Shown here in pieces: positions 16,619 to 64,000 of a DNA stretch of 64,000 nt; the stretch's first letter is position 1; each line of letters opens with the position of its first letter. The notes below the pieces were generated by a model, which saw nothing but the letters and a program-made list of their open reading frames with translations, was not told the origin of the DNA and did no database searches. The position numbers and the translations under genes are program-made. Source of the stretch: Dillenia suffruticosa (taxonomy: Eukaryota; Streptophyta; Magnoliopsida; Dilleniales; Dilleniaceae); NCBI GenBank assembly GCA_033439265.1, contig JAVTVX010000034.1, positions 20,722,501 to 20,786,500 of the forward strand. The letters are read 5' to 3'.

Positions 16619-16620
16619 AT

Positions 16621-16631: not shown

Positions 16632-16677
16632 TTGGTTCTCTACTCCATTAAAGAGACCTCTTTAAAGTGTTTAATCA

Positions 16678-20719: not shown

Positions 20720-20910
20720 TGAATAAAATGATGGAAATAAAGATAATTATGGAAATGTAGATAATGATGGAAATGATAATAGAAATGGTGTAGAAATTGG
20801 TGGAAATGGTATACAAAATGGTAATGAAAATTGTATAGAGAATTGTAAAAATGGTAAAAAGGAAATGATAATGGAAATAGTGATAAAAATTGAGAAAATA
20901 TAGTAATATT
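20720..20910. repeat. Degenerate aatggtaat/gatggaaat repeats inside the hAT-like element
   Basis: Low-complexity stretch of loosely repeated ggaaat, gataat and aatggt words. Open frames on both strands here follow from this composition. Confidence 0.6.
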
Positions 20911-23852: not shown

Positions 23853-23977
23853 AAATTACAAAAAAAAAATTCGGCACATAAAGCTTAAAGCTGACAGAAC
23901 TCATAGAGCCTCTACAATAAAACAGTCCATCTCTCTCTTCGAAATCCCTAACAGAGAATCTTAAATTCAAACTCAGA

Positions 23978-24271: not shown

Positions 24272-24284
24272 AAATTTTTCTAAG

Positions 24285-27440: not shown

Positions 27441-28864
27441 ATTTTGCATTGGTTTACAAATTGAACATCTAGATGATGAGATATTCACTCATTAATCAAA
27501 TTATACAGCTAAAGTTCTTAAACATTTATGTATGTATAAAACACATCTATTTGGTACCCGAATGGTAATGCGATCGCTTGACATTGAGAAAGATCCTTTA
27601 AGGCCAAGGGAGAAAATTGAATAGCTTCTTGGTCCTAAAGAATTTCTTTTACATATCTTGCTAATTGTACGAGACCTAATATATCATTCTCTGTCAATGC
27701 ATTTAGAAGATCTAACTTTCCTTCTACATGATGACATTGGAATGGAGTGAAACATATTATTCGGTATCTCCAAGGAATAACTGATCTCGACATGTTCCGT
27801 TATGCTAATTCTAAAAACTAATGTTGATTGGAAATTCCAATAGCGGTTGCAAGTAAACTGTCAAACACCTTGGAAAGGATACTCCTTTTCCTTCTCTAGT
27901 ATTTTTGCCCCCGGGTCTATTGCTTGCCCTATTTGGATAAAAAGAACATCCATTAACTACGTCAGTGGTTACCCTATTGCTTGCAATTGACAAAGATCCT
28001 TTCATAACACGGGAGAAAAATGAAGAACGTCTTACTCCTCATGTGCGATATCTTAATTCAAGTGGAGCACTTATGTATCTCACTACTTTATAAGACCTAT
28101 TATATCATTTACTGTGAATGTTTTAACAAGGTTTAATTCTCTGTATGGTATTCAACCTGAGTTAGAATGACTTCTAGATTTTGGATTTCTTGTTGAATCT
28201 TACCGTTTGAGACATTTCGGTTTTAGGTGACATTTAATTTTTAAGTTGCCGCACTTGGCTTAGCTATTTATATTTATTTCAAGTGCCTATATATTGGTCT
28301 CCCCCCATAATTTCATTCGTACACATAAAAACAACGGAGAACATAAGATGAAGCTCTCGACATTGCATTCAATTTTTTATTGCGAATTTCAATACAGTTT
28401 TTATCATGAATTTCAATTAAAATTCTACTTTTATATCAACCTCTCTACATTTCGTTCAATTTTCTATTTTGAGTTTCAAGGTTTAATTCTCATGTGCCAT
28501 ATCTTAATTCAAGTGGAGCGTCTTACAAATTATACAAGACCAAATATATCATTTACAGTGAATGTAATAATAAGGTTTAATTCTCTGCATTGCATTTAAC
28601 TTGAGTTAGATTGACTACTAGATTTTTGATTTCTTATCGACTCTTAACTTTTGAGACTTTTGGATTTTAAGGTAACTCTTAATTTTTAAGTTGTCGCACT
28701 TAGGGCAGCTATTTATATTTATTTCAACTGCCAACGTACATGTCTCCCCCTAAGATGAATCTCTCAACATTGCATTCAATTTTTTATTGTGAATTTCAAT
28801 TAAAATTCTACACTTATATCAATCTCTCTACATTTCGTTCAATTTTCAATTTTGAGTCTCAATC

Positions 28865-28868
28865 AAAA
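28865..28868 (-). terminator. Pol III terminator of the first tRNA-Glu gene (same place in every unit)
   Basis: The minus strand has TTTT nine bases after the discriminator base, the minimal RNA polymerase III stop signal. It recurs at 1,899-bp steps. Confidence 0.75.
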
Positions 28869-28877
28869 TTCTACTCC

Positions 28878-28949
28878 TTCCGTTGCCGGGAATCGAACCC
28901 GGGTCTCCTGGGTGAAAGCCAGACATCCTAACCGCTGGACGACAACGGA
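28878..28949 (-). tRNA. tRNA-Glu(UUC), copy 1
   Basis: The 72 nt fold as a full cloverleaf. The acceptor stem is TCCGTTG/CAACGGA with discriminator A, and the D arm is GTCC-AGCGGTTA-GGAT. The anticodon stem is TCTGG/CCAGG with loop CTTTCAC and anticodon TTC (complement of 28914-28916). The variable loop is AGAC, and the T arm is CCGGG-TTCGATT-CCCGG. The A box lies in the D arm and the B box GGTTCGATTCC in the T arm. There is no intron, and CCA is not encoded, as expected for a nuclear gene. The acceptor stem and T arm are of the nuclear plant tRNA-Glu type and unlike plastid trnE. The unit is 27441-29339, whose first 200 bp are diverged. Transcription is not shown by sequence. Confidence 0.96.
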
Positions 28950-28950
28950 T

Positions 28951-28956
28951 TTGTTG
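28951..28956 (-). promoter_or_regulatory. CAA-type upstream motif of the first tRNA-Glu gene (same place in every unit)
   Basis: The minus strand reads CAACAA at -7 to -2 before the first tRNA base. CAA motifs just upstream are common in plant nuclear tRNA genes and mark the Pol III start. No clear TATA-like element was seen further up. Confidence 0.6.
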
Positions 28957-29101
28957 TCAAACCAATTTCTAGACGGTAAACGTTACATAAGCTGTAGGTT
29001 TTTATCCTGTTTCGATAATTTCCCGAATATTTGCCATCATTATTATTCCAATTCCTTGTATGTATGTAACTTAATAACAAATTATATGACTTAATGACAA
29101 A

Positions 29102-29131
29102 CTTATCTCTCTCTCTCTTTCTCTCTCTTAT
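29102..29131. repeat. CT-rich run upstream of the tRNA gene in each array unit (reference copy)
   Basis: Pyrimidine run of mostly CT dinucleotides with one central TTT, about 155 bp upstream of the tRNA 5' end. It shows no visible length change between units, although such runs normally vary quickly, which again points to recent amplification. Confidence 0.85.
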
Positions 29132-29190
29132 TCACTATTTTTAAAGGATGCTGAATGTGACTTAAGGTTTTGATGGTTAGCAGTGACGTG

Positions 29191-29714
29191 GATAACGGAT
29201 ATGAAGGGGCAAACAATGCAATTTGCACCATTCATTATTTGCAAAGCTTCTTTGAATCTTATTGGCACTCGTGTAGAGATTTTAAGAACCATTAAACATT
29301 TAAAAGCAAAATTTGAGATCCAGATTTTGAAAAAATAAAATTTTGCATTGGTTTACAAATTGAACATCTAGATGATGGGATATACACTCATTGATCAAAT
29401 TATACAGCTAAAGTTCTTAAACATTTATGTATGCATAAAACACATCTATTTGGTACCCGAATGGTAAAGCGAACGCTTGACATTGACATAGATCTTTTAA
29501 GGCCAAGGGAGAAAATTGATTAGCTTCTTCGTCCTGAAGAATTTCTTTTACATATCTTGCTAATTGTACGAGACCTAATATATCATTCTCTGTCAATGCA
29601 TTTAGAAGATCTAACTTTCCTTCTACATGATGACATTGGAATGGAGTGAAACATATTATTCGGTATCTCCAAGGAATAACTGATCTCGACATGTTCCGTT
29701 ATGCTAATTCTAAA
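29191..29714 (+). pseudogene. Copia reverse-transcriptase fragment 1 of the array unit (reference copy)
   Basis: In the plus direction the frame reads LNLIGTRVEILRTIKHLK then KFEIQIL across the unit boundary. After a one-base shift comes KFCIGLQIEHLDDGIYTH, a stop, SNYTAKVLKHL, TRMVKRTLDIDIDLLRPREK, LANCTRPNISFSVNA, two stops, HWNGVKHIIRYLQGITDLDMF and YANSKN. This follows the region after the YVDD box in plant Copia reverse transcriptase. The fragment recurs in every unit at 1,899-bp steps. Seen: the motifs. Inferred: origin from one Copia copy that was trapped in the repeat. Confidence 0.85.
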
Positions 29715-29839
29715 AACTAATGTTGATTGGAAATTCCAATAGCGGTTGCAAGTAAACTGTCAAACACCTTGGAAAGGATACTCCTTTTCCTTCTCTAGTA
29801 TTTTTGCCCCCGGGTCTATTGCTTGCCCTATTTGGATAA

Positions 29840-30039
29840 AAAGAACATCCATTAACTACGTCAGTGGTTACCCTATTGCTTGCAATTGACAAAGATCCTT
29901 TCATAACACGGGAGAAAAATGAAGAACGTCTTACTCCTCATGTGCGATATCTTAATTCAAGTGGAGCACTTATGTATCTCACTACTTTATAAGACCTATT
30001 ATATCATTTACTGTGAATGTTTTAACAAGGTTTAATTCT
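29840..30039 (+). pseudogene. Copia reverse-transcriptase fragment 2 of the array unit (reference copy)
   Basis: The frame reads KEHPLTTSVVTLLLAIDKDP then FITREKNEERLTPHVRYLNS and SGALMYLT. After a one-base loss come RPIISFTVNVLTRFNS. It covers the same protein segment as fragment 1, but the two differ strongly, so they are separate or anciently duplicated copies. Confidence 0.82.
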
Positions 30040-30378
30040 CTGTATGGTATTCAACCTGAGTTAGAATGACTTCTAGATTTTGGATTTCTTGTTGAATCTT
30101 ACCGTTTGAGACATTTCGGTTTTAGGTGACATTTAATTTTTAAGTTGCCGCACTTGGCTTAGCTATTTATATTTATTTCAAGTGCCTATATATTGGTCTC
30201 CCCCCATAATTTCATTCGTACACATAAAAACAACGGAGAACATAAGATGAAGCTCTCGACATTGCATTCAATTTTTTATTGCGAATTTCAATACAGTTTT
30301 TATCATGAATTTCAATTAAAATTCTACTTTTATATCAACCTCTCTACATTTCGTTCAATTTTCTATTTTGAGTTTCAA

Positions 30379-30489
30379 GGTTTAATTCTCATGTGCCATA
30401 TCTTAATTCAAGTGGAGCGTCTTACAAATTATACAAGACCAAATATATCATTTACAGTGAATGTAATAATAAGGTTTAATTCTCTGCAT
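30379..30489 (+). pseudogene. Copia reverse-transcriptase fragment 3 of the array unit (reference copy)
   Basis: The frame reads LTNYTRPNISFTVNVIIRFN, a third version of the Asn-Cys-Thr-Arg-Pro segment, lying 451 bp after fragment 2 as part of an internal duplication of the unit. It lies in a 101-codon open frame that is accidental at its N-terminal half. Confidence 0.8.
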
Positions 30490-30776
30490 TGCATTTAACT
30501 TGAGTTAGATTGACTACTAGATTTTTGATTTCTTATCGACTCTTAACTTTTGAGACTTTTGGATTTTAAGGTAACTCTTAATTTTTAAGTTGTCGCACTT
30601 AGGGCAGCTATTTATATTTATTTCAACTGCCAACGTACATGTCTCCCCCTAAGATGAATCTCTCAACATTGCATTCAATTTTTTATTGTGAATTTCAATT
30701 AAAATTCTACACTTATATCAATCTCTCTACATTTCGTTCAATTTTCAATTTTGAGTCTCAATCAAAATTCTACTCC

Positions 30777-30848
30777 TTCCGTTGCCGGGAATCGAACCCG
30801 GGTCTCCTGGGTGAAAGCCAGACATCCTAACCGCTGGACGACAACGGA
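30777..30848 (-). tRNA. tRNA-Glu(UUC), copy 2
   Basis: Identical to copy 1; anticodon complement at 30813-30815. Unit 29340-31238, variant bases G at 29864 and A at 30113. Confidence 0.96.
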
Positions 30849-32675
30849 TTTGTTGTCAAACCAATTTCTAGACGGTAAACGTTACATAAGCTGTAGGTTT
30901 TTATCCTGTTTCGATAATTTCCCGAATATTTGCCATCATTATTATTCCAATTCCTTGTATGTATGTAACTTAATAACAAATTATATGACTTAATGACAAA
31001 CTTATCTCTCTCTCTCTTTCTCTCTCTTATTCACTATTTTTAAAGGATGCTGAATGTGACTTAAGGTTTTGATGGTTAGCAGTGACGTGGATAACGGATA
31101 TGAAGGGGCAAACAATGCAATTTGCACCATTCATTATTTGCAAAGCTTCTTTGAATCTTATTGGCACTCGTGTAGAGATTTTAAGAACCATTAAACATTT
31201 AAAAGCAAAATTTGAGATCCAGATTTTGAAAAAATAAAATTTTGCATTGGTTTACAAATTGAACATCTAGATGATGGGATATACACTCATTGATCAAATT
31301 ATACAGCTAAAGTTCTTAAACATTTATGTATGCATAAAACACATCTATTTGGTACCCGAATGGTAAAGCGAACGCTTGACATTGACATAGATCTTTTAAG
31401 GCCAAGGGAGAAAATTGATTAGCTTCTTCGTCCTGAAGAATTTCTTTTACATATCTTGCTAATTGTACGAGACCTAATATATCATTCTCTGTCAATGCAT
31501 TTAGAAGATCTAACTTTCCTTCTACATGATGACATTGGAATGGAGTGAAACATATTATTCGGTATCTCCAAGGAATAACTGATCTCGACATGTTCCGTTA
31601 TGCTAATTCTAAAAACTAATGTTGATTGGAAATTCCAATAGCGGTTGCAAGTAAACTGTCAAACACCTTGGAAAGGATACTCCTTTTCCTTCTCTAGTAT
31701 TTTTGCCCCCGGGTCTATTGCTTGCCCTATTTGGATAAAAAGAACATCCATTAACTACGTCAGTGGTTACCCTATTGCTTGCAATTGACAAAGATCCTTT
31801 CATAACACGGGAGAAAAATGAAGAACGTCTTACTCCTCATGTGCGATATCTTAATTCAAGTGGAGCACTTATGTATCTCACTACTTTATAAGACCTATTA
31901 TATCATTTACTGTGAATGTTTTAACAAGGTTTAATTCTCTGTATGGTATTCAACCTGAGTTAGAATGACTTCTAGATTTTGGATTTCTTGTTGAATCTTA
32001 CCGTTTGAGACTTTTCGGTTTTAGGTGACATTTAATTTTTAAGTTGCCGCACTTGGCTTAGCTATTTATATTTATTTCAAGTGCCTATATATTGGTCTCC
32101 CCCCATAATTTCATTCGTACACATAAAAACAACGGAGAACATAAGATGAAGCTCTCGACATTGCATTCAATTTTTTATTGCGAATTTCAATACAGTTTTT
32201 ATCATGAATTTCAATTAAAATTCTACTTTTATATCAACCTCTCTACATTTCGTTCAATTTTCTATTTTGAGTTTCAAGGTTTAATTCTCATGTGCCATAT
32301 CTTAATTCAAGTGGAGCGTCTTACAAATTATACAAGACCAAATATATCATTTACAGTGAATGTAATAATAAGGTTTAATTCTCTGCATTGCATTTAACTT
32401 GAGTTAGATTGACTACTAGATTTTTGATTTCTTATCGACTCTTAACTTTTGAGACTTTTGGATTTTAAGGTAACTCTTAATTTTTAAGTTGTCGCACTTA
32501 GGGCAGCTATTTATATTTATTTCAACTGCCAACGTACATGTCTCCCCCTAAGATGAATCTCTCAACATTGCATTCAATTTTTTATTGTGAATTTCAATTA
32601 AAATTCTACACTTATATCAATCTCTCTACATTTCGTTCAATTTTCAATTTTGAGTCTCAATCAAAATTCTACTCC

Positions 32676-32747
32676 TTCCGTTGCCGGGAATCGAACCCGG
32701 GTCTCCTGGGTGAAAGCCAGACATCCTAACCGCTGGACGACAACGGA
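32676..32747 (-). tRNA. tRNA-Glu(UUC), copy 3
   Basis: Identical to copy 1; anticodon complement at 32712-32714. Unit 31239-33137, variant bases G at 31763 and T at 32012. Confidence 0.96.
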
Positions 32748-34574
32748 TTTGTTGTCAAACCAATTTCTAGACGGTAAACGTTACATAAGCTGTAGGTTTT
32801 TATCCTGTTTCGATAATTTCCCGAATATTTGCCATCATTATTATTCCAATTCCTTGTATGTATGTAACTTAATAACAAATTATATGACTTAATGACAAAC
32901 TTATCTCTCTCTCTCTTTCTCTCTCTTATTCACTATTTTTAAAGGATGCTGAATGTGACTTAAGGTTTTGATGGTTAGCAGTGACGTGGATAACGGATAT
33001 GAAGGGGCAAACAATGCAATTTGCACCATTCATTATTTGCAAAGCTTCTTTGAATCTTATTGGCACTCGTGTAGAGATTTTAAGAACCATTAAACATTTA
33101 AAAGCAAAATTTGAGATCCAGATTTTGAAAAAATAAAATTTTGCATTGGTTTACAAATTGAACATCTAGATGATGGGATATACACTCATTGATCAAATTA
33201 TACAGCTAAAGTTCTTAAACATTTATGTATGCATAAAACACATCTATTTGGTACCCGAATGGTAAAGCGAACGCTTGACATTGACATAGATCTTTTAAGG
33301 CCAAGGGAGAAAATTGATTAGCTTCTTCGTCCTGAAGAATTTCTTTTACATATCTTGCTAATTGTACGAGACCTAATATATCATTCTCTGTCAATGCATT
33401 TAGAAGATCTAACTTTCCTTCTACATGATGACATTGGAATGGAGTGAAACATATTATTCGGTATCTCCAAGGAATAACTGATCTCGACATGTTCCGTTAT
33501 GCTAATTCTAAAAACTAATGTTGATTGGAAATTCCAATAGCGGTTGCAAGTAAACTGTCAAACACCTTGGAAAGGATACTCCTTTTCCTTCTCTAGTATT
33601 TTTGCCCCCGGGTCTATTGCTTGCCCTATTTGGATAAAAAGAACATCCATTAACTACGTCAGTGGTTACCCTATTGCTTGCAATTGACAAAGATCCTTTC
33701 ATAACACGGGAGAAAAATGAAGAACGTCTTACTCCTCATGTGCGATATCTTAATTCAAGTGGAGCACTTATGTATCTCACTACTTTATAAGACCTATTAT
33801 ATCATTTACTGTGAATGTTTTAACAAGGTTTAATTCTCTGTATGGTATTCAACCTGAGTTAGAATGACTTCTAGATTTTGGATTTCTTGTTGAATCTTAC
33901 CGTTTGAGACTTTTCGGTTTTAGGTGACATTTAATTTTTAAGTTGCCGCACTTGGCTTAGCTATTTATATTTATTTCAAGTGCCTATATATTGGTCTCCC
34001 CCCATAATTTCATTCGTACACATAAAAACAACGGAGAACATAAGATGAAGCTCTCGACATTGCATTCAATTTTTTATTGCGAATTTCAATACAGTTTTTA
34101 TCATGAATTTCAATTAAAATTCTACTTTTATATCAACCTCTCTACATTTCGTTCAATTTTCTATTTTGAGTTTCAAGGTTTAATTCTCATGTGCCATATC
34201 TTAATTCAAGTGGAGCGTCTTACAAATTATACAAGACCAAATATATCATTTACAGTGAATGTAATAATAAGGTTTAATTCTCTGCATTGCATTTAACTTG
34301 AGTTAGATTGACTACTAGATTTTTGATTTCTTATCGACTCTTAACTTTTGAGACTTTTGGATTTTAAGGTAACTCTTAATTTTTAAGTTGTCGCACTTAG
34401 GGCAGCTATTTATATTTATTTCAACTGCCAACGTACATGTCTCCCCCTAAGATGAATCTCTCAACATTGCATTCAATTTTTTATTGTGAATTTCAATTAA
34501 AATTCTACACTTATATCAATCTCTCTACATTTCGTTCAATTTTCAATTTTGAGTCTCAATCAAAATTCTACTCC

Positions 34575-34646
34575 TTCCGTTGCCGGGAATCGAACCCGGG
34601 TCTCCTGGGTGAAAGCCAGACATCCTAACCGCTGGACGACAACGGA
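34575..34646 (-). tRNA. tRNA-Glu(UUC), copy 4
   Basis: Identical to copy 1; anticodon complement at 34611-34613. Unit 33138-35036, variant bases G at 33662 and T at 33911. Confidence 0.96.
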
Positions 34647-36473
34647 TTTGTTGTCAAACCAATTTCTAGACGGTAAACGTTACATAAGCTGTAGGTTTTT
34701 ATCCTGTTTCGATAATTTCCCGAATATTTGCCATCATTATTATTCCAATTCCTTGTATGTATGTAACTTAATAACAAATTATATGACTTAATGACAAACT
34801 TATCTCTCTCTCTCTTTCTCTCTCTTATTCACTATTTTTAAAGGATGCTGAATGTGACTTAAGGTTTTGATGGTTAGCAGTGACGTGGATAACGGATATG
34901 AAGGGGCAAACAATGCAATTTGCACCATTCATTATTTGCAAAGCTTCTTTGAATCTTATTGGCACTCGTGTAGAGATTTTAAGAACCATTAAACATTTAA
35001 AAGCAAAATTTGAGATCCAGATTTTGAAAAAATAAAATTTTGCATTGGTTTACAAATTGAACATCTAGATGATGGGATATACACTCATTGATCAAATTAT
35101 ACAGCTAAAGTTCTTAAACATTTATGTATGCATAAAACACATCTATTTGGTACCCGAATGGTAAAGCGAACGCTTGACATTGACATAGATCTTTTAAGGC
35201 CAAGGGAGAAAATTGATTAGCTTCTTCGTCCTGAAGAATTTCTTTTACATATCTTGCTAATTGTACGAGACCTAATATATCATTCTCTGTCAATGCATTT
35301 AGAAGATCTAACTTTCCTTCTACATGATGACATTGGAATGGAGTGAAACATATTATTCGGTATCTCCAAGGAATAACTGATCTCGACATGTTCCGTTATG
35401 CTAATTCTAAAAACTAATGTTGATTGGAAATTCCAATAGCGGTTGCAAGTAAACTGTCAAACACCTTGGAAAGGATACTCCTTTTCCTTCTCTAGTATTT
35501 TTGCCCCCGGGTCTATTGCTTGCCCTATTTGGATAAAAAGAACATCCATTAACTACGTCAGTGGTTACCCTATTGCTTGCAATTGACAAAGATCCTTTCA
35601 TAACACGGGAGAAAAATGAAGAACGTCTTACTCCTCATGTGCGATATCTTAATTCAAGTGGAGCACTTATGTATCTCACTACTTTATAAGACCTATTATA
35701 TCATTTACTGTGAATGTTTTAACAAGGTTTAATTCTCTGTATGGTATTCAACCTGAGTTAGAATGACTTCTAGATTTTGGATTTCTTGTTGAATCTTACC
35801 GTTTGAGACTTTTCGGTTTTAGGTGACATTTAATTTTTAAGTTGCCGCACTTGGCTTAGCTATTTATATTTATTTCAAGTGCCTATATATTGGTCTCCCC
35901 CCATAATTTCATTCGTACACATAAAAACAACGGAGAACATAAGATGAAGCTCTCGACATTGCATTCAATTTTTTATTGCGAATTTCAATACAGTTTTTAT
36001 CATGAATTTCAATTAAAATTCTACTTTTATATCAACCTCTCTACATTTCGTTCAATTTTCTATTTTGAGTTTCAAGGTTTAATTCTCATGTGCCATATCT
36101 TAATTCAAGTGGAGCGTCTTACAAATTATACAAGACCAAATATATCATTTACAGTGAATGTAATAATAAGGTTTAATTCTCTGCATTGCATTTAACTTGA
36201 GTTAGATTGACTACTAGATTTTTGATTTCTTATCGACTCTTAACTTTTGAGACTTTTGGATTTTAAGGTAACTCTTAATTTTTAAGTTGTCGCACTTAGG
36301 GCAGCTATTTATATTTATTTCAACTGCCAACGTACATGTCTCCCCCTAAGATGAATCTCTCAACATTGCATTCAATTTTTTATTGTGAATTTCAATTAAA
36401 ATTCTACACTTATATCAATCTCTCTACATTTCGTTCAATTTTCAATTTTGAGTCTCAATCAAAATTCTACTCC

Positions 36474-36545
36474 TTCCGTTGCCGGGAATCGAACCCGGGT
36501 CTCCTGGGTGAAAGCCAGACATCCTAACCGCTGGACGACAACGGA
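36474..36545 (-). tRNA. tRNA-Glu(UUC), copy 5
   Basis: Identical to copy 1; anticodon complement at 36510-36512. Unit 35037-36935, variant bases G at 35561 and T at 35810. Confidence 0.96.
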
Positions 36546-38372: not shown

Positions 38373-38444
38373 TTCCGTTGCCGGGAATCGAACCCGGGTC
38401 TCCTGGGTGAAAGCCAGACATCCTAACCGCTGGACGACAACGGA
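38373..38444 (-). tRNA. tRNA-Glu(UUC), copy 6
   Basis: Identical to copy 1; anticodon complement at 38409-38411. Unit 36936-38834, variant bases G at 37460 and T at 37709. Confidence 0.96.
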
Positions 38445-40271: not shown

Positions 40272-40343
40272 TTCCGTTGCCGGGAATCGAACCCGGGTCT
40301 CCTGGGTGAAAGCCAGACATCCTAACCGCTGGACGACAACGGA
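40272..40343 (-). tRNA. tRNA-Glu(UUC), copy 7
   Basis: Identical to copy 1; anticodon complement at 40308-40310. Unit 38835-40733, with G at 39359, T at 39608 and a private A at 39674 where other units have C. Confidence 0.96.
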
Positions 40344-42170: not shown

Positions 42171-42242
42171 TTCCGTTGCCGGGAATCGAACCCGGGTCTC
42201 CTGGGTGAAAGCCAGACATCCTAACCGCTGGACGACAACGGA
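42171..42242 (-). tRNA. tRNA-Glu(UUC), copy 8
   Basis: Identical to copy 1; anticodon complement at 42207-42209. Unit 40734-42632, the last one with G at the first variant site (41258). Confidence 0.96.
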
Positions 42243-44069: not shown

Positions 44070-44141
44070 TTCCGTTGCCGGGAATCGAACCCGGGTCTCC
44101 TGGGTGAAAGCCAGACATCCTAACCGCTGGACGACAACGGA
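44070..44141 (-). tRNA. tRNA-Glu(UUC), copy 9
   Basis: Identical to copy 1; anticodon complement at 44106-44108. Unit 42633-44531, the first with A at the variant site (43157). It has two private bases, C at 43161 and C at 44430. Confidence 0.96.
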
Positions 44142-45968: not shown

Positions 45969-46040
45969 TTCCGTTGCCGGGAATCGAACCCGGGTCTCCT
46001 GGGTGAAAGCCAGACATCCTAACCGCTGGACGACAACGGA
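45969..46040 (-). tRNA. tRNA-Glu(UUC), copy 10
   Basis: Identical to copy 1; anticodon complement at 46005-46007. Unit 44532-46430, variant bases A at 45056 and T at 45305. Confidence 0.96.
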
Positions 46041-47867: not shown

Positions 47868-47939
47868 TTCCGTTGCCGGGAATCGAACCCGGGTCTCCTG
47901 GGTGAAAGCCAGACATCCTAACCGCTGGACGACAACGGA
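47868..47939 (-). tRNA. tRNA-Glu(UUC), copy 11
   Basis: Identical to copy 1; anticodon complement at 47904-47906. Unit 46431-48329, variant bases A at 46955 and T at 47204. Confidence 0.96.
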
Positions 47940-49766: not shown

Positions 49767-49838
49767 TTCCGTTGCCGGGAATCGAACCCGGGTCTCCTGG
49801 GTGAAAGCCAGACATCCTAACCGCTGGACGACAACGGA
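49767..49838 (-). tRNA. tRNA-Glu(UUC), copy 12
   Basis: Identical to copy 1; anticodon complement at 49803-49805. Unit 48330-50228, variant bases A at 48854 and A at 49103. Confidence 0.96.
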
Positions 49839-51665: not shown

Positions 51666-51737
51666 TTCCGTTGCCGGGAATCGAACCCGGGTCTCCTGGG
51701 TGAAAGCCAGACATCCTAACCGCTGGACGACAACGGA
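51666..51737 (-). tRNA. tRNA-Glu(UUC), copy 13
   Basis: Identical to copy 1; anticodon complement at 51702-51704. Unit 50229-52127, variant bases A at 50753 and A at 51002. Confidence 0.96.
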
Positions 51738-53564: not shown

Positions 53565-53636
53565 TTCCGTTGCCGGGAATCGAACCCGGGTCTCCTGGGT
53601 GAAAGCCAGACATCCTAACCGCTGGACGACAACGGA
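53565..53636 (-). tRNA. tRNA-Glu(UUC), copy 14
   Basis: Identical to copy 1; anticodon complement at 53601-53603. Unit 52128-54026, variant bases A at 52652 and A at 52901. Confidence 0.96.
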
Positions 53637-55463
53637 TTTGTTGTCAAACCAATTTCTAGACGGTAAACGTTACATAAGCTGTAGGTTTTTATCCTGTTTC
53701 GATAATTTCCCGAATATTTGCCATCATTATTATTCCAATTCCTTGTATGTATGTAACTTAATAACAAATTATATGACTTAATGACAAACTTATCTCTCTC
53801 TCTCTTTCTCTCTCTTATTCACTATTTTTAAAGGATGCTGAATGTGACTTAAGGTTTTGATGGTTAGCAGTGACGTGGATAACGGATATGAAGGGGCAAA
53901 CAATGCAATTTGCACCATTCATTATTTGCAAAGCTTCTTTGAATCTTATTGGCACTCGTGTAGAGATTTTAAGAACCATTAAACATTTAAAAGCAAAATT
54001 TGAGATCCAGATTTTGAAAAAATAAAATTTTGCATTGGTTTACAAATTGAACATCTAGATGATGGGATATACACTCATTGATCAAATTATACAGCTAAAG
54101 TTCTTAAACATTTATGTATGCATAAAACACATCTATTTGGTACCCGAATGGTAAAGCGAACGCTTGACATTGACATAGATCTTTTAAGGCCAAGGGAGAA
54201 AATTGATTAGCTTCTTCGTCCTGAAGAATTTCTTTTACATATCTTGCTAATTGTACGAGACCTAATATATCATTCTCTGTCAATGCATTTAGAAGATCTA
54301 ACTTTCCTTCTACATGATGACATTGGAATGGAGTGAAACATATTATTCGGTATCTCCAAGGAATAACTGATCTCGACATGTTCCGTTATGCTAATTCTAA
54401 AAACTAATGTTGATTGGAAATTCCAATAGCGGTTGCAAGTAAACTGTCAAACACCTTGGAAAGGATACTCCTTTTCCTTCTCTAGTATTTTTGCCCCCGG
54501 GTCTATTGCTTGCCCTATTTGGATAAAAAGAACATCCATTAACTACGTCAATGGTTACCCTATTGCTTGCAATTGACAAAGATCCTTTCATAACACGGGA
54601 GAAAAATGAAGAACGTCTTACTCCTCATGTGCGATATCTTAATTCAAGTGGAGCACTTATGTATCTCACTACTTTATAAGACCTATTATATCATTTACTG
54701 TGAATGTTTTAACAAGGTTTAATTCTCTGTATGGTATTCAACCTGAGTTAGAATGACTTCTAGATTTTGGATTTCTTGTTGAATCTTACCGTTTGAGACT
54801 TTTCGGTTTTAGGTGACATTTAATTTTTAAGTTGCCGCACTTGGCTTAGCTATTTATATTTATTTCAAGTGCCTATATATTGGTCTCCCCCCATAATTTC
54901 ATTCGTACACATAAAAACAACGGAGAACATAAGATGAAGCTCTCGACATTGCATTCAATTTTTTATTGCGAATTTCAATACAGTTTTTATCATGAATTTC
55001 AATTAAAATTCTACTTTTATATCAACCTCTCTACATTTCGTTCAATTTTCTATTTTGAGTTTCAAGGTTTAATTCTCATGTGCCATATCTTAATTCAAGT
55101 GGAGCGTCTTACAAATTATACAAGACCAAATATATCATTTACAGTGAATGTAATAATAAGGTTTAATTCTCTGCATTGCATTTAACTTGAGTTAGATTGA
55201 CTACTAGATTTTTGATTTCTTATCGACTCTTAACTTTTGAGACTTTTGGATTTTAAGGTAACTCTTAATTTTTAAGTTGTCGCACTTAGGGCAGCTATTT
55301 ATATTTATTTCAACTGCCAACGTACATGTCTCCCCCTAAGATGAATCTCTCAACATTGCATTCAATTTTTTATTGTGAATTTCAATTAAAATTCTACACT
55401 TATATCAATCTCTCTACATTTCGTTCAATTTTCAATTTTGAGTCTCAATCAAAATTCTACTCC

Positions 55464-55535
55464 TTCCGTTGCCGGGAATCGAACCCGGGTCTCCTGGGTG
55501 AAAGCCAGACATCCTAACCGCTGGACGACAACGGA
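55464..55535 (-). tRNA. tRNA-Glu(UUC), copy 15
   Basis: Identical to copy 1; anticodon complement at 55500-55502. Unit 54027-55925, variant bases A at 54551 and T at 54800. Confidence 0.96.
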
Positions 55536-57362
55536 TTTGTTGTCAAACCAATTTCTAGACGGTAAACGTTACATAAGCTGTAGGTTTTTATCCTGTTTCG
55601 ATAATTTCCCGAATATTTGCCATCATTATTATTCCAATTCCTTGTATGTATGTAACTTAATAACAAATTATATGACTTAATGACAAACTTATCTCTCTCT
55701 CTCTTTCTCTCTCTTATTCACTATTTTTAAAGGATGCTGAATGTGACTTAAGGTTTTGATGGTTAGCAGTGACGTGGATAACGGATATGAAGGGGCAAAC
55801 AATGCAATTTGCACCATTCATTATTTGCAAAGCTTCTTTGAATCTTATTGGCACTCGTGTAGAGATTTTAAGAACCATTAAACATTTAAAAGCAAAATTT
55901 GAGATCCAGATTTTGAAAAAATAAAATTTTGCATTGGTTTACAAATTGAACATCTAGATGATGGGATATACACTCATTGATCAAATTATACAGCTAAAGT
56001 TCTTAAACATTTATGTATGCATAAAACACATCTATTTGGTACCCGAATGGTAAAGCGAACGCTTGACATTGACATAGATCTTTTAAGGCCAAGGGAGAAA
56101 ATTGATTAGCTTCTTCGTCCTGAAGAATTTCTTTTACATATCTTGCTAATTGTACGAGACCTAATATATCATTCTCTGTCAATGCATTTAGAAGATCTAA
56201 CTTTCCTTCTACATGATGACATTGGAATGGAGTGAAACATATTATTCGGTATCTCCAAGGAATAACTGATCTCGACATGTTCCGTTATGCTAATTCTAAA
56301 AACTAATGTTGATTGGAAATTCCAATAGCGGTTGCAAGTAAACTGTCAAACACCTTGGAAAGGATACTCCTTTTCCTTCTCTAGTATTTTTGCCCCCGGG
56401 TCTATTGCTTGCCCTATTTGGATAAAAAGAACATCCATTAACTACGTCAATGGTTACCCTATTGCTTGCAATTGACAAAGATCCTTTCATAACACGGGAG
56501 AAAAATGAAGAACGTCTTACTCCTCATGTGCGATATCTTAATTCAAGTGGAGCACTTATGTATCTCACTACTTTATAAGACCTATTATATCATTTACTGT
56601 GAATGTTTTAACAAGGTTTAATTCTCTGTATGGTATTCAACCTGAGTTAGAATGACTTCTAGATTTTGGATTTCTTGTTGAATCTTACCGTTTGAGACTT
56701 TTCGGTTTTAGGTGACATTTAATTTTTAAGTTGCCGCACTTGGCTTAGCTATTTATATTTATTTCAAGTGCCTATATATTGGTCTCCCCCCATAATTTCA
56801 TTCGTACACATAAAAACAACGGAGAACATAAGATGAAGCTCTCGACATTGCATTCAATTTTTTATTGCGAATTTCAATACAGTTTTTATCATGAATTTCA
56901 ATTAAAATTCTACTTTTATATCAACCTCTCTACATTTCGTTCAATTTTCTATTTTGAGTTTCAAGGTTTAATTCTCATGTGCCATATCTTAATTCAAGTG
57001 GAGCGTCTTACAAATTATACAAGACCAAATATATCATTTACAGTGAATGTAATAATAAGGTTTAATTCTCTGCATTGCATTTAACTTGAGTTAGATTGAC
57101 TACTAGATTTTTGATTTCTTATCGACTCTTAACTTTTGAGACTTTTGGATTTTAAGGTAACTCTTAATTTTTAAGTTGTCGCACTTAGGGCAGCTATTTA
57201 TATTTATTTCAACTGCCAACGTACATGTCTCCCCCTAAGATGAATCTCTCAACATTGCATTCAATTTTTTATTGTGAATTTCAATTAAAATTCTACACTT
57301 ATATCAATCTCTCTACATTTCGTTCAATTTTCAATTTTGAGTCTCAATCAAAATTCTACTCC

Positions 57363-57434
57363 TTCCGTTGCCGGGAATCGAACCCGGGTCTCCTGGGTGA
57401 AAGCCAGACATCCTAACCGCTGGACGACAACGGA
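57363..57434 (-). tRNA. tRNA-Glu(UUC), copy 16
   Basis: Identical to copy 1; anticodon complement at 57399-57401. Unit 55926-57824, variant bases A at 56450 and T at 56699. Confidence 0.96.
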
Positions 57435-59261
57435 TTTGTTGTCAAACCAATTTCTAGACGGTAAACGTTACATAAGCTGTAGGTTTTTATCCTGTTTCGA
57501 TAATTTCCCGAATATTTGCCATCATTATTATTCCAATTCCTTGTATGTATGTAACTTAATAACAAATTATATGACTTAATGACAAACTTATCTCTCTCTC
57601 TCTTTCTCTCTCTTATTCACTATTTTTAAAGGATGCTGAATGTGACTTAAGGTTTTGATGGTTAGCAGTGACGTGGATAACGGATATGAAGGGGCAAACA
57701 ATGCAATTTGCACCATTCATTATTTGCAAAGCTTCTTTGAATCTTATTGGCACTCGTGTAGAGATTTTAAGAACCATTAAACATTTAAAAGCAAAATTTG
57801 AGATCCAGATTTTGAAAAAATAAAATTTTGCATTGGTTTACAAATTGAACATCTAGATGATGGGATATACACTCATTGATCAAATTATACAGCTAAAGTT
57901 CTTAAACATTTATGTATGCATAAAACACATCTATTTGGTACCCGAATGGTAAAGCGAACGCTTGACATTGACATAGATCTTTTAAGGCCAAGGGAGAAAA
58001 TTGATTAGCTTCTTCGTCCTGAAGAATTTCTTTTACATATCTTGCTAATTGTACGAGACCTAATATATCATTCTCTGTCAATGCATTTAGAAGATCTAAC
58101 TTTCCTTCTACATGATGACATTGGAATGGAGTGAAACATATTATTCGGTATCTCCAAGGAATAACTGATCTCGACATGTTCCGTTATGCTAATTCTAAAA
58201 ACTAATGTTGATTGGAAATTCCAATAGCGGTTGCAAGTAAACTGTCAAACACCTTGGAAAGGATACTCCTTTTCCTTCTCTAGTATTTTTGCCCCCGGGT
58301 CTATTGCTTGCCCTATTTGGATAAAAAGAACATCCATTAACTACGTCAATGGTTACCCTATTGCTTGCAATTGACAAAGATCCTTTCATAACACGGGAGA
58401 AAAATGAAGAACGTCTTACTCCTCATGTGCGATATCTTAATTCAAGTGGAGCACTTATGTATCTCACTACTTTATAAGACCTATTATATCATTTACTGTG
58501 AATGTTTTAACAAGGTTTAATTCTCTGTATGGTATTCAACCTGAGTTAGAATGACTTCTAGATTTTGGATTTCTTGTTGAATCTTACCGTTTGAGACTTT
58601 TCGGTTTTAGGTGACATTTAATTTTTAAGTTGCCGCACTTGGCTTAGCTATTTATATTTATTTCAAGTGCCTATATATTGGTCTCCCCCCATAATTTCAT
58701 TCGTACACATAAAAACAACGGAGAACATAAGATGAAGCTCTCGACATTGCATTCAATTTTTTATTGCGAATTTCAATACAGTTTTTATCATGAATTTCAA
58801 TTAAAATTCTACTTTTATATCAACCTCTCTACATTTCGTTCAATTTTCTATTTTGAGTTTCAAGGTTTAATTCTCATGTGCCATATCTTAATTCAAGTGG
58901 AGCGTCTTACAAATTATACAAGACCAAATATATCATTTACAGTGAATGTAATAATAAGGTTTAATTCTCTGCATTGCATTTAACTTGAGTTAGATTGACT
59001 ACTAGATTTTTGATTTCTTATCGACTCTTAACTTTTGAGACTTTTGGATTTTAAGGTAACTCTTAATTTTTAAGTTGTCGCACTTAGGGCAGCTATTTAT
59101 ATTTATTTCAACTGCCAACGTACATGTCTCCCCCTAAGATGAATCTCTCAACATTGCATTCAATTTTTTATTGTGAATTTCAATTAAAATTCTACACTTA
59201 TATCAATCTCTCTACATTTCGTTCAATTTTCAATTTTGAGTCTCAATCAAAATTCTACTCC

Positions 59262-59333
59262 TTCCGTTGCCGGGAATCGAACCCGGGTCTCCTGGGTGAA
59301 AGCCAGACATCCTAACCGCTGGACGACAACGGA
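59262..59333 (-). tRNA. tRNA-Glu(UUC), copy 17
   Basis: Identical to copy 1; anticodon complement at 59298-59300. Unit 57825-59723, variant bases A at 58349 and T at 58598. Confidence 0.96.
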
Positions 59334-61160
59334 TTTGTTGTCAAACCAATTTCTAGACGGTAAACGTTACATAAGCTGTAGGTTTTTATCCTGTTTCGAT
59401 AATTTCCCGAATATTTGCCATCATTATTATTCCAATTCCTTGTATGTATGTAACTTAATAACAAATTATATGACTTAATGACAAACTTATCTCTCTCTCT
59501 CTTTCTCTCTCTTATTCACTATTTTTAAAGGATGCTGAATGTGACTTAAGGTTTTGATGGTTAGCAGTGACGTGGATAACGGATATGAAGGGGCAAACAA
59601 TGCAATTTGCACCATTCATTATTTGCAAAGCTTCTTTGAATCTTATTGGCACTCGTGTAGAGATTTTAAGAACCATTAAACATTTAAAAGCAAAATTTGA
59701 GATCCAGATTTTGAAAAAATAAAATTTTGCATTGGTTTACAAATTGAACATCTAGATGATGGGATATACACTCATTGATCAAATTATACAGCTAAAGTTC
59801 TTAAACATTTATGTATGCATAAAACACATCTATTTGGTACCCGAATGGTAAAGCGAACGCTTGACATTGACATAGATCTTTTAAGGCCAAGGGAGAAAAT
59901 TGATTAGCTTCTTCGTCCTGAAGAATTTCTTTTACATATCTTGCTAATTGTACGAGACCTAATATATCATTCTCTGTCAATGCATTTAGAAGATCTAACT
60001 TTCCTTCTACATGATGACATTGGAATGGAGTGAAACATATTATTCGGTATCTCCAAGGAATAACTGATCTCGACATGTTCCGTTATGCTAATTCTAAAAA
60101 CTAATGTTGATTGGAAATTCCAATAGCGGTTGCAAGTAAACTGTCAAACACCTTGGAAAGGATACTCCTTTTCCTTCTCTAGTATTTTTGCCCCCGGGTC
60201 TATTGCTTGCCCTATTTGGATAAAAAGAACATCCATTAACTACGTCAATGGTTACCCTATTGCTTGCAATTGACAAAGATCCTTTCATAACACGGGAGAA
60301 AAATGAAGAACGTCTTACTCCTCATGTGCGATATCTTAATTCAAGTGGAGCACTTATGTATCTCACTACTTTATAAGACCTATTATATCATTTACTGTGA
60401 ATGTTTTAACAAGGTTTAATTCTCTGTATGGTATTCAACCTGAGTTAGAATGACTTCTAGATTTTGGATTTCTTGTTGAATCTTACCGTTTGAGACTTTT
60501 CGGTTTTAGGTGACATTTAATTTTTAAGTTGCCGCACTTGGCTTAGCTATTTATATTTATTTCAAGTGCCTATATATTGGTCTCCCCCCATAATTTCATT
60601 CGTACACATAAAAACAACGGAGAACATAAGATGAAGCTCTCGACATTGCATTCAATTTTTTATTGCGAATTTCAATACAGTTTTTATCATGAATTTCAAT
60701 TAAAATTCTACTTTTATATCAACCTCTCTACATTTCGTTCAATTTTCTATTTTGAGTTTCAAGGTTTAATTCTCATGTGCCATATCTTAATTCAAGTGGA
60801 GCGTCTTACAAATTATACAAGACCAAATATATCATTTACAGTGAATGTAATAATAAGGTTTAATTCTCTGCATTGCATTTAACTTGAGTTAGATTGACTA
60901 CTAGATTTTTGATTTCTTATCGACTCTTAACTTTTGAGACTTTTGGATTTTAAGGTAACTCTTAATTTTTAAGTTGTCGCACTTAGGGCAGCTATTTATA
61001 TTTATTTCAACTGCCAACGTACATGTCTCCCCCTAAGATGAATCTCTCAACATTGCATTCAATTTTTTATTGTGAATTTCAATTAAAATTCTACACTTAT
61101 ATCAATCTCTCTACATTTCGTTCAATTTTCAATTTTGAGTCTCAATCAAAATTCTACTCC

Positions 61161-61232
61161 TTCCGTTGCCGGGAATCGAACCCGGGTCTCCTGGGTGAAA
61201 GCCAGACATCCTAACCGCTGGACGACAACGGA
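61161..61232 (-). tRNA. tRNA-Glu(UUC), copy 18
   Basis: Identical to copy 1; anticodon complement at 61197-61199. Unit 59724-61622, variant bases A at 60248 and T at 60497. Confidence 0.96.
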
Positions 61233-63059
61233 TTTGTTGTCAAACCAATTTCTAGACGGTAAACGTTACATAAGCTGTAGGTTTTTATCCTGTTTCGATA
61301 ATTTCCCGAATATTTGCCATCATTATTATTCCAATTCCTTGTATGTATGTAACTTAATAACAAATTATATGACTTAATGACAAACTTATCTCTCTCTCTC
61401 TTTCTCTCTCTTATTCACTATTTTTAAAGGATGCTGAATGTGACTTAAGGTTTTGATGGTTAGCAGTGACGTGGATAACGGATATGAAGGGGCAAACAAT
61501 GCAATTTGCACCATTCATTATTTGCAAAGCTTCTTTGAATCTTATTGGCACTCGTGTAGAGATTTTAAGAACCATTAAACATTTAAAAGCAAAATTTGAG
61601 ATCCAGATTTTGAAAAAATAAAATTTTGCATTGGTTTACAAATTGAACATCTAGATGATGGGATATACACTCATTGATCAAATTATACAGCTAAAGTTCT
61701 TAAACATTTATGTATGCATAAAACACATCTATTTGGTACCCGAATGGTAAAGCGAACGCTTGACATTGACATAGATCTTTTAAGGCCAAGGGAGAAAATT
61801 GATTAGCTTCTTCGTCCTGAAGAATTTCTTTTACATATCTTGCTAATTGTACGAGACCTAATATATCATTCTCTGTCAATGCATTTAGAAGATCTAACTT
61901 TCCTTCTACATGATGACATTGGAATGGAGTGAAACATATTATTCGGTATCTCCAAGGAATAACTGATCTCGACATGTTCCGTTATGCTAATTCTAAAAAC
62001 TAATGTTGATTGGAAATTCCAATAGCGGTTGCAAGTAAACTGTCAAACACCTTGGAAAGGATACTCCTTTTCCTTCTCTAGTATTTTTGCCCCCGGGTCT
62101 ATTGCTTGCCCTATTTGGATAAAAAGAACATCCATTAACTACGTCAATGGTTACCCTATTGCTTGCAATTGACAAAGATCCTTTCATAACACGGGAGAAA
62201 AATGAAGAACGTCTTACTCCTCATGTGCGATATCTTAATTCAAGTGGAGCACTTATGTATCTCACTACTTTATAAGACCTATTATATCATTTACTGTGAA
62301 TGTTTTAACAAGGTTTAATTCTCTGTATGGTATTCAACCTGAGTTAGAATGACTTCTAGATTTTGGATTTCTTGTTGAATCTTACCGTTTGAGACTTTTC
62401 GGTTTTAGGTGACATTTAATTTTTAAGTTGCCGCACTTGGCTTAGCTATTTATATTTATTTCAAGTGCCTATATATTGGTCTCCCCCCATAATTTCATTC
62501 GTACACATAAAAACAACGGAGAACATAAGATGAAGCTCTCGACATTGCATTCAATTTTTTATTGCGAATTTCAATACAGTTTTTATCATGAATTTCAATT
62601 AAAATTCTACTTTTATATCAACCTCTCTACATTTCGTTCAATTTTCTATTTTGAGTTTCAAGGTTTAATTCTCATGTGCCATATCTTAATTCAAGTGGAG
62701 CGTCTTACAAATTATACAAGACCAAATATATCATTTACAGTGAATGTAATAATAAGGTTTAATTCTCTGCATTGCATTTAACTTGAGTTAGATTGACTAC
62801 TAGATTTTTGATTTCTTATCGACTCTTAACTTTTGAGACTTTTGGATTTTAAGGTAACTCTTAATTTTTAAGTTGTCGCACTTAGGGCAGCTATTTATAT
62901 TTATTTCAACTGCCAACGTACATGTCTCCCCCTAAGATGAATCTCTCAACATTGCATTCAATTTTTTATTGTGAATTTCAATTAAAATTCTACACTTATA
63001 TCAATCTCTCTACATTTCGTTCAATTTTCAATTTTGAGTCTCAATCAAAATTCTACTCC

Positions 63060-63131
63060 TTCCGTTGCCGGGAATCGAACCCGGGTCTCCTGGGTGAAAG
63101 CCAGACATCCTAACCGCTGGACGACAACGGA
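63060..63131 (-). tRNA. tRNA-Glu(UUC), copy 19
   Basis: Identical to copy 1; anticodon complement at 63096-63098. Unit 61623-63521, variant bases A at 62147 and T at 62396. The following unit is cut by the window edge at 64000, before its tRNA. Confidence 0.96.
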
Positions 63132-64000
63132 TTTGTTGTCAAACCAATTTCTAGACGGTAAACGTTACATAAGCTGTAGGTTTTTATCCTGTTTCGATAA
63201 TTTCCCGAATATTTGCCATCATTATTATTCCAATTCCTTGTATGTATGTAACTTAATAACAAATTATATGACTTAATGACAAACTTATCTCTCTCTCTCT
63301 TTCTCTCTCTTATTCACTATTTTTAAAGGATGCTGAATGTGACTTAAGGTTTTGATGGTTAGCAGTGACGTGGATAACGGATATGAAGGGGCAAACAATG
63401 CAATTTGCACCATTCATTATTTGCAAAGCTTCTTTGAATCTTATTGGCACTCGTGTAGAGATTTTAAGAACCATTAAACATTTAAAAGCAAAATTTGAGA
63501 TCCAGATTTTGAAAAAATAAAATTTTGCATTGGTTTACAAATTGAACATCTAGATGATGGGATATACACTCATTGATCAAATTATACAGCTAAAGTTCTT
63601 AAACATTTATGTATGCATAAAACACATCTATTTGGTACCCGAATGGTAAAGCGAACGCTTGACATTGACATAGATCTTTTAAGGCCAAGGGAGAAAATTG
63701 ATTAGCTTCTTCGTCCTGAAGAATTTCTTTTACATATCTTGCTAATTGTACGAGACCTAATATATCATTCTCTGTCAATGCATTTAGAAGATCTAACTTT
63801 CCTTCTACATGATGACATTGGAATGGAGTGAAACATATTATTCGGTATCTCCAAGGAATAACTGATCTCGACATGTTCCGTTATGCTAATTCTAAAAACT
63901 AATGTTGATTGGAAATTCCAATAGCGGTTGCAAGTAAACTGTCAAACACCTTGGAAAGGATACTCCTTTTCCTTCTCTAGTATTTTTGCCCCCGGGTCTA

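Follow-up and report, generated by a model that had tools for sequence, protein, structure and literature searches.

The tRNA-Glu(UUC) array on C34 of Dillenia suffruticosa probably represents a young core within an old tandem family whose unit was enlarged, amplified and homogenised, and the intact genes that it carries are most likely functional and under selection, as judged from sequence comparison. The locus and its relatives display a long array with a homogeneous core and decayed edges, sister loci elsewhere in the genome, a gene and an upstream element that are better conserved in intact copies, and decay at CpG and CHG sites.

Within the window, the 64,000-nucleotide stretch of DNA that was analysed, all 19 tRNA genes called by ARAGORN are tRNA-Glu with the anticodon TTC on the minus strand, spaced by exactly 1,899 bp from the first (28878-28949) to the last (63060-63131), and all 19 Rfam RF00005 matches (64.7 bits each) are minus-strand tRNAs (Table 1). 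When the sequence was compared with itself at an offset of 1,899 bp, 12 mismatches were found from 27441 to 27637, none from there to 30112 and 10 mismatching positions in the remainder of the window. The frame stays perfect beyond the window up to window coordinate 83237, and the homogeneous core comprises 29 in-frame tRNA-Glu genes in ~56 kb. Across its 28 full units there are 9 variable sites, and any two units differ on average at 1.40 positions in 1,899 bp; the tRNA gene is identical in 28/28, and the variants of units 19-21 recur in identical order in units 22-24, indicating a three-unit block duplication. With a kilobase unit repeated in tandem at high homogeneity, the array is a macrosatellite, and with one isotype arranged head-to-tail (19/19 genes in the window, 29 in the locus frame) it is also a tandem tRNA array of the kind that holds one or few isotypes. 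The first-pass annotation had described a macrosatellite in which every unit has an intact tRNA-Glu(UUC) gene and which extends beyond the window, and this was borne out on a larger scale than first stated.

Table 1. Features of the tRNA-Glu(UUC) array and its units in the window
Feature	Coordinates	Strand	Remarks
Homogeneous tRNA-Glu(UUC) array, portion in window	27441..64000	-	exact 1,899 period; core runs on to 83237
Degenerate outer unit	25794..27435	-	88% identity to core unit
First unit, truncated	27441..28949	-	outer ~200 bp with 12 mismatches, remainder as next unit
Reference full unit	28950..30848	-	1,899 bp; unit majority sequence GC 0.33
Internal duplication of unit, copy 1	29931..30378		73% identical to copy 2
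Internal duplication of unit, copy 2	30382..30761		73% identical to copy 1
Positions -15 to -1 of first tRNA gene	28950..28964	-	includes CAA element
T4 run behind first tRNA gene	28865..28868	-	likely pol III stop
tRNA-Glu(UUC) 1	28878..28949	-	ARAGORN, Rfam RF00005
tRNA-Glu(UUC) 2	30777..30848	-	ARAGORN, Rfam RF00005
tRNA-Glu(UUC) 3	32676..32747	-	ARAGORN, Rfam RF00005
tRNA-Glu(UUC) 4	34575..34646	-	ARAGORN, Rfam RF00005
tRNA-Glu(UUC) 5	36474..36545	-	ARAGORN, Rfam RF00005
tRNA-Glu(UUC) 6	38373..38444	-	ARAGORN, Rfam RF00005
tRNA-Glu(UUC) 7	40272..40343	-	ARAGORN, Rfam RF00005
tRNA-Glu(UUC) 8	42171..42242	-	ARAGORN, Rfam RF00005
tRNA-Glu(UUC) 9	44070..44141	-	ARAGORN, Rfam RF00005
tRNA-Glu(UUC) 10	45969..46040	-	ARAGORN, Rfam RF00005
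tRNA-Glu(UUC) 11	47868..47939	-	ARAGORN, Rfam RF00005
tRNA-Glu(UUC) 12	49767..49838	-	ARAGORN, Rfam RF00005
tRNA-Glu(UUC) 13	51666..51737	-	ARAGORN, Rfam RF00005
tRNA-Glu(UUC) 14	53565..53636	-	ARAGORN, Rfam RF00005
tRNA-Glu(UUC) 15	55464..55535	-	ARAGORN, Rfam RF00005
tRNA-Glu(UUC) 16	57363..57434	-	ARAGORN, Rfam RF00005
tRNA-Glu(UUC) 17	59262..59333	-	ARAGORN, Rfam RF00005
tRNA-Glu(UUC) 18	61161..61232	-	ARAGORN, Rfam RF00005
tRNA-Glu(UUC) 19	63060..63131	-	ARAGORN, Rfam RF00005

The CAA element TTTGACAACAAA lies directly upstream of the first tRNA gene, at 28950-28961, and the T4 run begins 11 nt behind the gene; the A and B boxes were identified just by eye. The minimum-energy fold of the tRNA is the cloverleaf, with a stability not above that of shuffles (z -0.93). 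The cloverleaf, upstream CAA and T4 stop that had been reported at first reading are all present in the sequence, and together with the internal promoter they are the features that a functional pol III tRNA gene would be expected to have. A search of the 1,899-bp unit for relic tRNAs yielded none at E below 1e-3. The unit appears from its sequence to be an enlarged form of an old tRNA-Glu monomer of ~1.3 kb.

Older degenerate units flank the homogeneous core. The degenerate outer unit to the left stops within its tRNA gene, of which just the 3' piece is left. At the right edge, the upstream identity to the core declines outwards from 100 to 96.4, 91.6, 92.1, 88.1 and 79.5%, with exceptions to this gradient further out (82.0, 70.9, 86.1 and 71.2%), and the gene spacing changes outwards from 1,899 to 1,936-1,941 and then to 1,039-1,311 bp. 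When a copy is counted as decayed if its tRNA has 4 or more mismatches, 32 of the 47 aligned tRNA copies of the family are decayed. For the comparison of conservation, 8 non-redundant intact copies (of 15 rows) and 29 decayed ones (of 32 rows) were used. The mean pairwise identity of the intact copies is 0.989 in the tRNA, a value biased by their having been chosen for an intact gene, and 0.938 at positions -15 to -1, which is free of that bias and compares with 0.766 in the decayed copies. The flanks of the intact copies have identities of 0.77-0.85 further upstream and 0.85-0.88 downstream and are somewhat more alike than those of the decayed copies, which show 0.70-0.79 throughout (tRNA 0.777). 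In 31 different decayed genes, C>T/G>A changes per site reach 0.290 at CpG and 0.168 at CHG, against 0.090 at other G/C positions (p 1.6e-5 and p 0.0033, respectively, although the site counts are not independent because the decayed copies share ancestry). The decayed copies look neutral in sequence, with CpG and CHG decay.

A genome search with the tRNA-Glu(UUC) gene pattern (up to 3 mismatches) gave 72 matches, of which 33 lie in the C34 locus (29 in the homogeneous core), 16 in a related array on C16 and 9 in an unrelated cluster on C29; the suggestion that the locus holds a large share of the tRNA-Glu(UUC) set is in keeping with these numbers. Dispersed genes also encode the same mature tRNA-Glu, and the C34 array may therefore be dispensable. 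In a stretch of about two units, the unit of the C16 array measures 3,947 bp and consists of three monomers of 1,295, 1,324 and 1,328 bp, and a tree of spacers separates the C16 copies from the young C34 ones, each in a clade of its own. Both C16 genes that are otherwise intact have TCTT in place of the T4 run, so that an intact sequence is no proof of a working gene. No sign of synteny that would point to a whole-genome duplication behind the sister loci came from the flanks: queries with window 3900-9900 (40/1980 candidates scored) and with the C16 flank (40/1766 scored) matched dispersed repeats.

We propose that the family arose by tandem duplication of a tRNA gene together with ~1.3 kb of the DNA around it and that most copies then decayed, apparently under cytosine methylation, of which the CpG and CHG changes would be the trace. 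One unit with a working gene would have grown to 1.9 kb through an internal duplication, and the enlarged unit would have been amplified and its copies made uniform through exchange among adjacent repeats, presumably driven by unequal exchange, with older units persisting at the edges. The C16 sister locus may have followed the same course with a three-monomer unit. The intact genes would most likely be functional pol III genes, transcribed and kept alike by selection rather than by conversion, and by analogy with the Arabidopsis Ser-Tyr-Tyr cluster they are perhaps silent in most tissues.

It is conceivable, though rather unlikely, that the array is a selfish or passive satellite, in which recombination alone expands the repeat and the tRNA gene is silent and unselected, either carried along or assisting the expansion, for instance by stalling replication forks. 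The preponderance of decayed copies (32/47) would agree with this, as would the CpG and CHG decay, which fits silenced chromatin, and the broken T4 run of the C16 genes; the uniformity of the young C34 core is a result of its recency and is uninformative on selection. However, nine intact copies retain the gene with 0-2 differences per pair despite a divergence of up to 26% in the upstream 300 bp, and the upstream element is clearly better conserved beside an intact gene. The conserved gene and upstream element would also be compatible with a role as a chromatin boundary, in which its clustered TFIIIC sites would keep domains apart, a function suggested for the tRNA repeat at human 1q23.3, where a precedent with CTCF is described (PMC4041453). 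We consider such a role very improbable here. The human unit is GC-rich, measures 7.3 kb and is described as binding CTCF, whereas the C34 unit is AT-rich (GC 0.33). To our knowledge, CTCF is absent from plants.

The body of the unit had been taken at first as transposon-derived, which would mean that a mobile element (a Helitron, or a TRIM-kind LTR element with a pol III promoter) caught the tRNA gene and piled up in tandem. A Helitron has been considered for the Arabidopsis tRNA-Cys cluster (PMC10701932), LTR elements with pieces derived from small-RNA genes have been described, one of them in tandem arrays (PMC10886601), and a Copia-type element lies ~0.7 kb left of the degenerate outer unit. 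Nevertheless, a spacer search of the genome gave 57 matches, all on C34, C16 or C8 (6/518 candidates scored, very common words skipped), and because the spacer is confined to tRNA-Glu loci within that search, a transposon origin is unsupported. Three ORFs of the unit gave no Pfam match, the compared pieces of other tRNA arrays have unrelated spacers, and the unit itself seems to be the enlarged monomer; we regard a mobile origin as improbable. A few real units multiplied by the assembler would yield the exact period and the very high identity, but such an artefact is scarcely credible in view of the nine variable sites in ordered patterns, the degenerate flanking units with a graded right edge, and the separate arrays on other contigs. 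The preferred reading remains that of a young core, re-amplified within an old tandem family.

Kilobase tRNA arrays are already known; therefore, the C34 array is not new in kind but a variant of them. The Ser-Tyr-Tyr cluster on Arabidopsis chromosome 1 is described as 27 units in almost 40 kbp (PMC10701932), ~1.5 kb per unit by our division, which contradicts the earlier view that plant tRNA clusters have short units; likewise, a 7.3-kb tRNA repeat with 9-43 units per allele is described at human 1q23.3 (PMC4041453), so a kilobase tRNA repeat is not undescribed. The Arabidopsis cluster has a major-copy core, variable pseudogene-bearing flanks and CG and CHG methylation, according to the account cited (PMC12308677). 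The C34 array shares with it the kilobase unit, the SYY-like trait of a homogeneous core with pseudogene-rich flanks, and identical genes beside dispersed ones. It differs, as far as these accounts go, in having one tRNA-Glu per 1,899 bp rather than three tRNA genes of two isotypes per unit, near-identical units, additional tRNA-Glu arrays and, at the sister locus, a unit of three monomers; of methylation, D. suffruticosa offers the mutational trace in decayed copies alone. The human locus similarly has tRNA genes within a kilobase tandem repeat. The Arabidopsis tRNA-Cys cluster on chromosome 5, whose copy number varies, also has one tRNA gene per tandem unit and an edge pseudogene, but is described as four ~420 bp units, 84-94% identical, that overlap annotated Helitrons (PMC10701932). 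Many tandem copies of one isotype (26-28) are likewise described for maize tRNA-Ile and moss (Cpu) clusters, the moss also having a Val-Glu-Phe repeat; these were found in surveys by density criteria of 3 genes per kb, or of neighbours within 1 kb (PMC11700998, PMC12652284). With one gene per 1,899 bp, the C34 array falls below such a density, which is a search threshold and not a biological definition. No tRNA-Glu macrosatellite of a seed plant appeared among the literature entries listed, which lay mostly outside subscription papers.

The locus is not singular, as had been supposed: by our own tally, the genome has 13 tandem tRNA series, this one among them. Tandem arrays were formed by 6 of the 7 tRNA gene patterns tested (Glu-UUC, Cys, Ile, Asp, Pro and Ala), which are not a random sample because Glu-UUC, Ile and Cys were searched after they had already appeared in arrays; Pro was chosen since it is clustered in other plants, whereas Asp, intended as a dispersed control, was found in arrays, and Ala likewise formed them. 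Glu(CUC), the non-amplified comparison, has at least 2 genome matches, a lower bound for the pattern used. Among the pieces compared, arrays of different isotypes are homologous in no more than the tRNA genes themselves and a few bases next to them; Cys array pieces from C2 and C8 have a spacer in common. Almost all tRNA genes of E. histolytica are described as lying in tandem arrays (PMC2652664), and D. suffruticosa resembles Entamoeba in that many isotypes each have separate tandem arrays; in contrast, the Entamoeba units are described as holding up to 5 tRNA genes with short tandem repeats, and some genes of D. suffruticosa are dispersed.

The locus bears on the reasons for the high redundancy of tRNA genes and on how so many copies remain identical. 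Here, one assembly displays a core, a graded edge, decayed relics and sister arrays, and because these stages and the other tRNA arrays can be compared in one genome, selection, gene conversion and passive expansion may be told apart. Our results suggest that density-based surveys of plant tRNA genes can miss arrays with units longer than a kilobase. The similar arrays formed by several tRNA genes hint that these genes are multiplied and renewed in a way that recurs. Going further, we consider it an evenly balanced proposition that a large part of the tRNA genes of this genome is held as macrosatellites, independently in six or more isoacceptor families and often in higher-order units with one live gene and decayed sisters, renewed by tandem birth, methylation-driven decay and re-amplification of the live-gene unit. 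If so, the Entamoeba arrays would have an equivalent in a plant, tRNA genes would undergo concerted evolution across the genome, and tRNA macrosatellites would be partly invisible to surveys that require dense clusters.

Within the window (C34:20722501-20786500), both ARAGORN and Rfam detect 19 minus-strand tRNA genes at intervals of exactly 1,899 bp, and ARAGORN assigns every one to tRNA-Glu with the anticodon TTC. The periodicity is exact from position 27441 to the window end, the exceptions being 12 mismatches that fall within the outer 200 bp of unit 1 and 10 mismatching positions elsewhere. In the next 50 kb examined, the perfect frame persists to window coordinate 83237; therefore, the homogeneous core spans ~55.8 kb and carries 29 in-frame tRNA-Glu genes, these copy numbers being those of one assembly (596 Mb in 37 contigs). 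Across the 28 full core units there are 9 variable sites, with a mean of 1.40 differences per pair and 52 of the 378 pairs without any difference; the tRNA gene sequence is the same in all 28. Units 19-21 and 22-24 carry identical variants in identical order, the signature of a block duplication.

Outside the core the repeat is degenerate, with a diverged unit on the left (Table) and further units on the right for ~20 kb. Compared with the core, the upstream 800 bp (segments of at least 550 bp) are 100, 96.4, 91.6, 92.1, 88.1, 79.5, 82.0, 70.9, 86.1 and 71.2% identical going outward on the right, a series that drops clearly near the core and is without order farther out. Gene spacing changes in the same direction from 1,899 to 1,936-1,941 and 1,039-1,311 bp and then becomes irregular. 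Left of the array lies a Copia-type LTR element (window 15269-25109) with direct repeat pieces at 15433-16323 and 24238-25109 (88-93% identical), an RVT_2 match in 22824-23852 and a weak zinc-knuckle match in an ORF at 17382. A 0.6-kb segment at window 4150-4748 is matched in inverted orientation (70%) by a stretch directly to the right of the array (C34:20829846-20830492), perhaps a repeat only, and GC-rich short tandem repeats occupy 2245-2826 (GC 0.65 in 2001-3000) in AT-rich surroundings.

A genome-wide search with the 71-nt tRNA-Glu gene, allowing up to three mismatches, returned 72 matches: 33 at the C34 locus that includes the core (29 of these keep the exact period), 16 on C16, nine in the C29 cluster, three on C8 near relic loci and 11 single genes elsewhere. 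Two of the three C8 matches sit within examined monomers and the third is at 7988885. Searching with the entire unit listed 57 matches, confined to C34 (right edge), C16 and C8 (best 6 of 518 candidates scored); because this search passes over words that are very frequent and even the core is missing from its list, absence of the spacer elsewhere is not implied. In the stretches examined, these matches adjoin intact or decayed tRNA-Glu copies. Each C16 unit contains two intact tRNA-Glu genes and, in the approximately two units examined, also a third, decayed one, in monomers of 1,295, 1,324 and 1,328 bp. These lengths give a common monomer of ~1.3 kb for the family, of which the 1,899-bp unit is an extended version that carries an internal duplication. 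In a tree built from 29 distinct upstream segments, C16 copies and young C34 copies form separate clades, and some old C34 monomers cluster with C8, which argues that the family predates the present arrays and that these were amplified separately. For the C29 locus, no similarity to the C34 unit was found outside the tRNA gene.

Table: Tandem tRNA series and the left outer unit (window coordinates for the latter; "listed" refers to the 100 matches listed per pattern)
Feature	Location	Description
Left outer unit	25794-27435	88% identical to core unit; terminates within its own tRNA gene
tRNA-Glu array	C16:18574066-18603059	eight 3,947-bp units; one interval is 3,946 bp
tRNA-Glu locus	C29:24892454-24903319	nine genes; units of 1.75-2.3 kb and a 383-389 bp sub-array
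Ile(UAU)	C1:4319194-4343451	19 matches, mostly 810-819 bp spacing
Cys(GCA)	C11:12579001-12700088	83 among 100 listed, over ~121 kb, mostly ~1,160 bp spacing
Asp(GUC)	C8:7612185-7674246	48 among 100 listed, ~1.2 kb spacing
Asp(GUC)	C10:2105199-2164179	27 among 100 listed, mostly 1,573 bp or multiples apart
Asp(GUC)	C24	9 among 100 listed, ~1.87 kb spacing
Pro	C8:4338123-4411597	66 among 100 listed, 931-bp units, two gene types
Pro	C21:2840198-2894992	27 among 100 listed, ~1,355-bp units, two gene types
Ala	C30, near 7.4, 8.3 and 11.65 Mb	three series

The stretches examined on C34, C16 and C8 yielded 48 tRNA copies of the family, 47 of which could be aligned (one is without full flanks). Their mismatches to the gene are bimodal, with 0-1 in 15 copies (intact) and 4 or more in 32 (decayed). 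Among eight intact copies, after exclusion of seven identical or near-identical rows, mean pairwise identity reaches 0.989 within the gene and is 0.938 at -15..-1, where the CAA motif lies, 0.833 at -30..-16, 0.77-0.85 farther upstream, and 0.88 and 0.85 in two downstream stretches. The 29 decayed copies (two partly lost copies and one duplicate excluded) show 0.70-0.79 everywhere, including the gene (0.777) and -15..-1 (0.766). Nine intact copies have only 0-2 gene differences per pair, compared with up to 26% divergence over the upstream 300 bp. Conversion from the dispersed single genes could maintain the gene itself but would be unlikely to preserve the upstream element, because the flanks of the two single genes examined are unrelated. 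A simple reading of these patterns as constraint is countered by the C16 unit examined, in which the T4 run, the likely pol III stop, reads TCTT behind both otherwise intact genes, so that termination at these genes may be poor. Across 31 different decayed genes, the per-site rate of C>T/G>A change is 0.290 at CpG, 0.168 at CHG and 0.090 at other G/C, as would be expected if the copies were methylated; because the decayed copies are related, this signal is indicative only.

Regular tRNA series also occur elsewhere in the genome (Rfam search, best 63 of 49,706 candidates scored). Pattern searches for the other isotypes, with up to three mismatches, gave 34 matches for Ile(UAU), 130 for Cys(GCA), 132 for Asp(GUC), 199 for Pro, 225 for Ala and at least 2 for Glu(CUC). 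Glu-UUC, Ile and Cys were chosen as already known in arrays, Pro for its clusters in other plants and Asp as an intended dispersed control; six of the seven patterns tested form tandem series. The copies listed for each series were tallied by eye. In all we count 13 series (Table): Glu 3, if the C29 cluster, which is less regular, is included; Ile 1; Cys 1; Asp 3; Pro 2; and Ala 3. Seven Ile matches on C13 form a looser group outside this count. The Pro gene types, as read from the listed matches, differ at the anticodon position: TGG is paired with AGG on C8 and with CGG on C21. Several of the arrays examined (one to three units each) have higher-order units. The 1,573-bp Asp unit examined on C10 comprises nine ~175-bp monomers, one with an intact and eight with decayed genes; in the other examined pieces, each Cys unit on C11 combines an intact gene with two decayed ones, and the units of Asp on C8 and of Ile on C1 hold one gene of either kind. 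The C34 unit and the pieces from Asp C24, Cys C2 and Cys C8 yielded no decayed gene, and no relation was found between spacers of different isotypes in the pieces compared.

We propose that such arrays probably begin with tandem duplication of a tRNA gene with its surroundings. Recombination between neighbours would then shift copy number, homogenising central units while outer units age; the majority of genes would probably decay, apparently with methylation, and a unit, whether of a single monomer or more, that retains a live gene would occasionally be re-amplified. The nearest tested case is the Arabidopsis Ser-Tyr-Tyr cluster. According to PMC12308677, major copies make up its core, variable regions rich in pseudogenes flank it, and it carries CG and CHG methylation. 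The cluster is not expressed in most tissues but is active in the root cap, where deleting it changes a Ser/Tyr/Pro-rich protein; the paper argues that the silencing is not due to DNA methylation alone. In two surveys, clusters of tRNA-Pro, Tyr-Ser and Ile were recognized in flowering plants at three genes per kb, with clustered genes at most 20% in any genome surveyed (PMC11700998), and a Val-Glu-Phe repeat was recognized in a moss among 50 plants with neighbours within 1 kb (PMC12652284). A 1.9-kb unit would escape both criteria; the Ile and Pro arrays of D. suffruticosa would fall under the 1-kb rule. Among the papers listed by our literature search, in a collection largely outside subscription journals, we found no tRNA-Glu macrosatellite in a seed plant. 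The tRNA-Glu array belongs, as a variant, with an already known kind of locus, the tRNA gene clusters.
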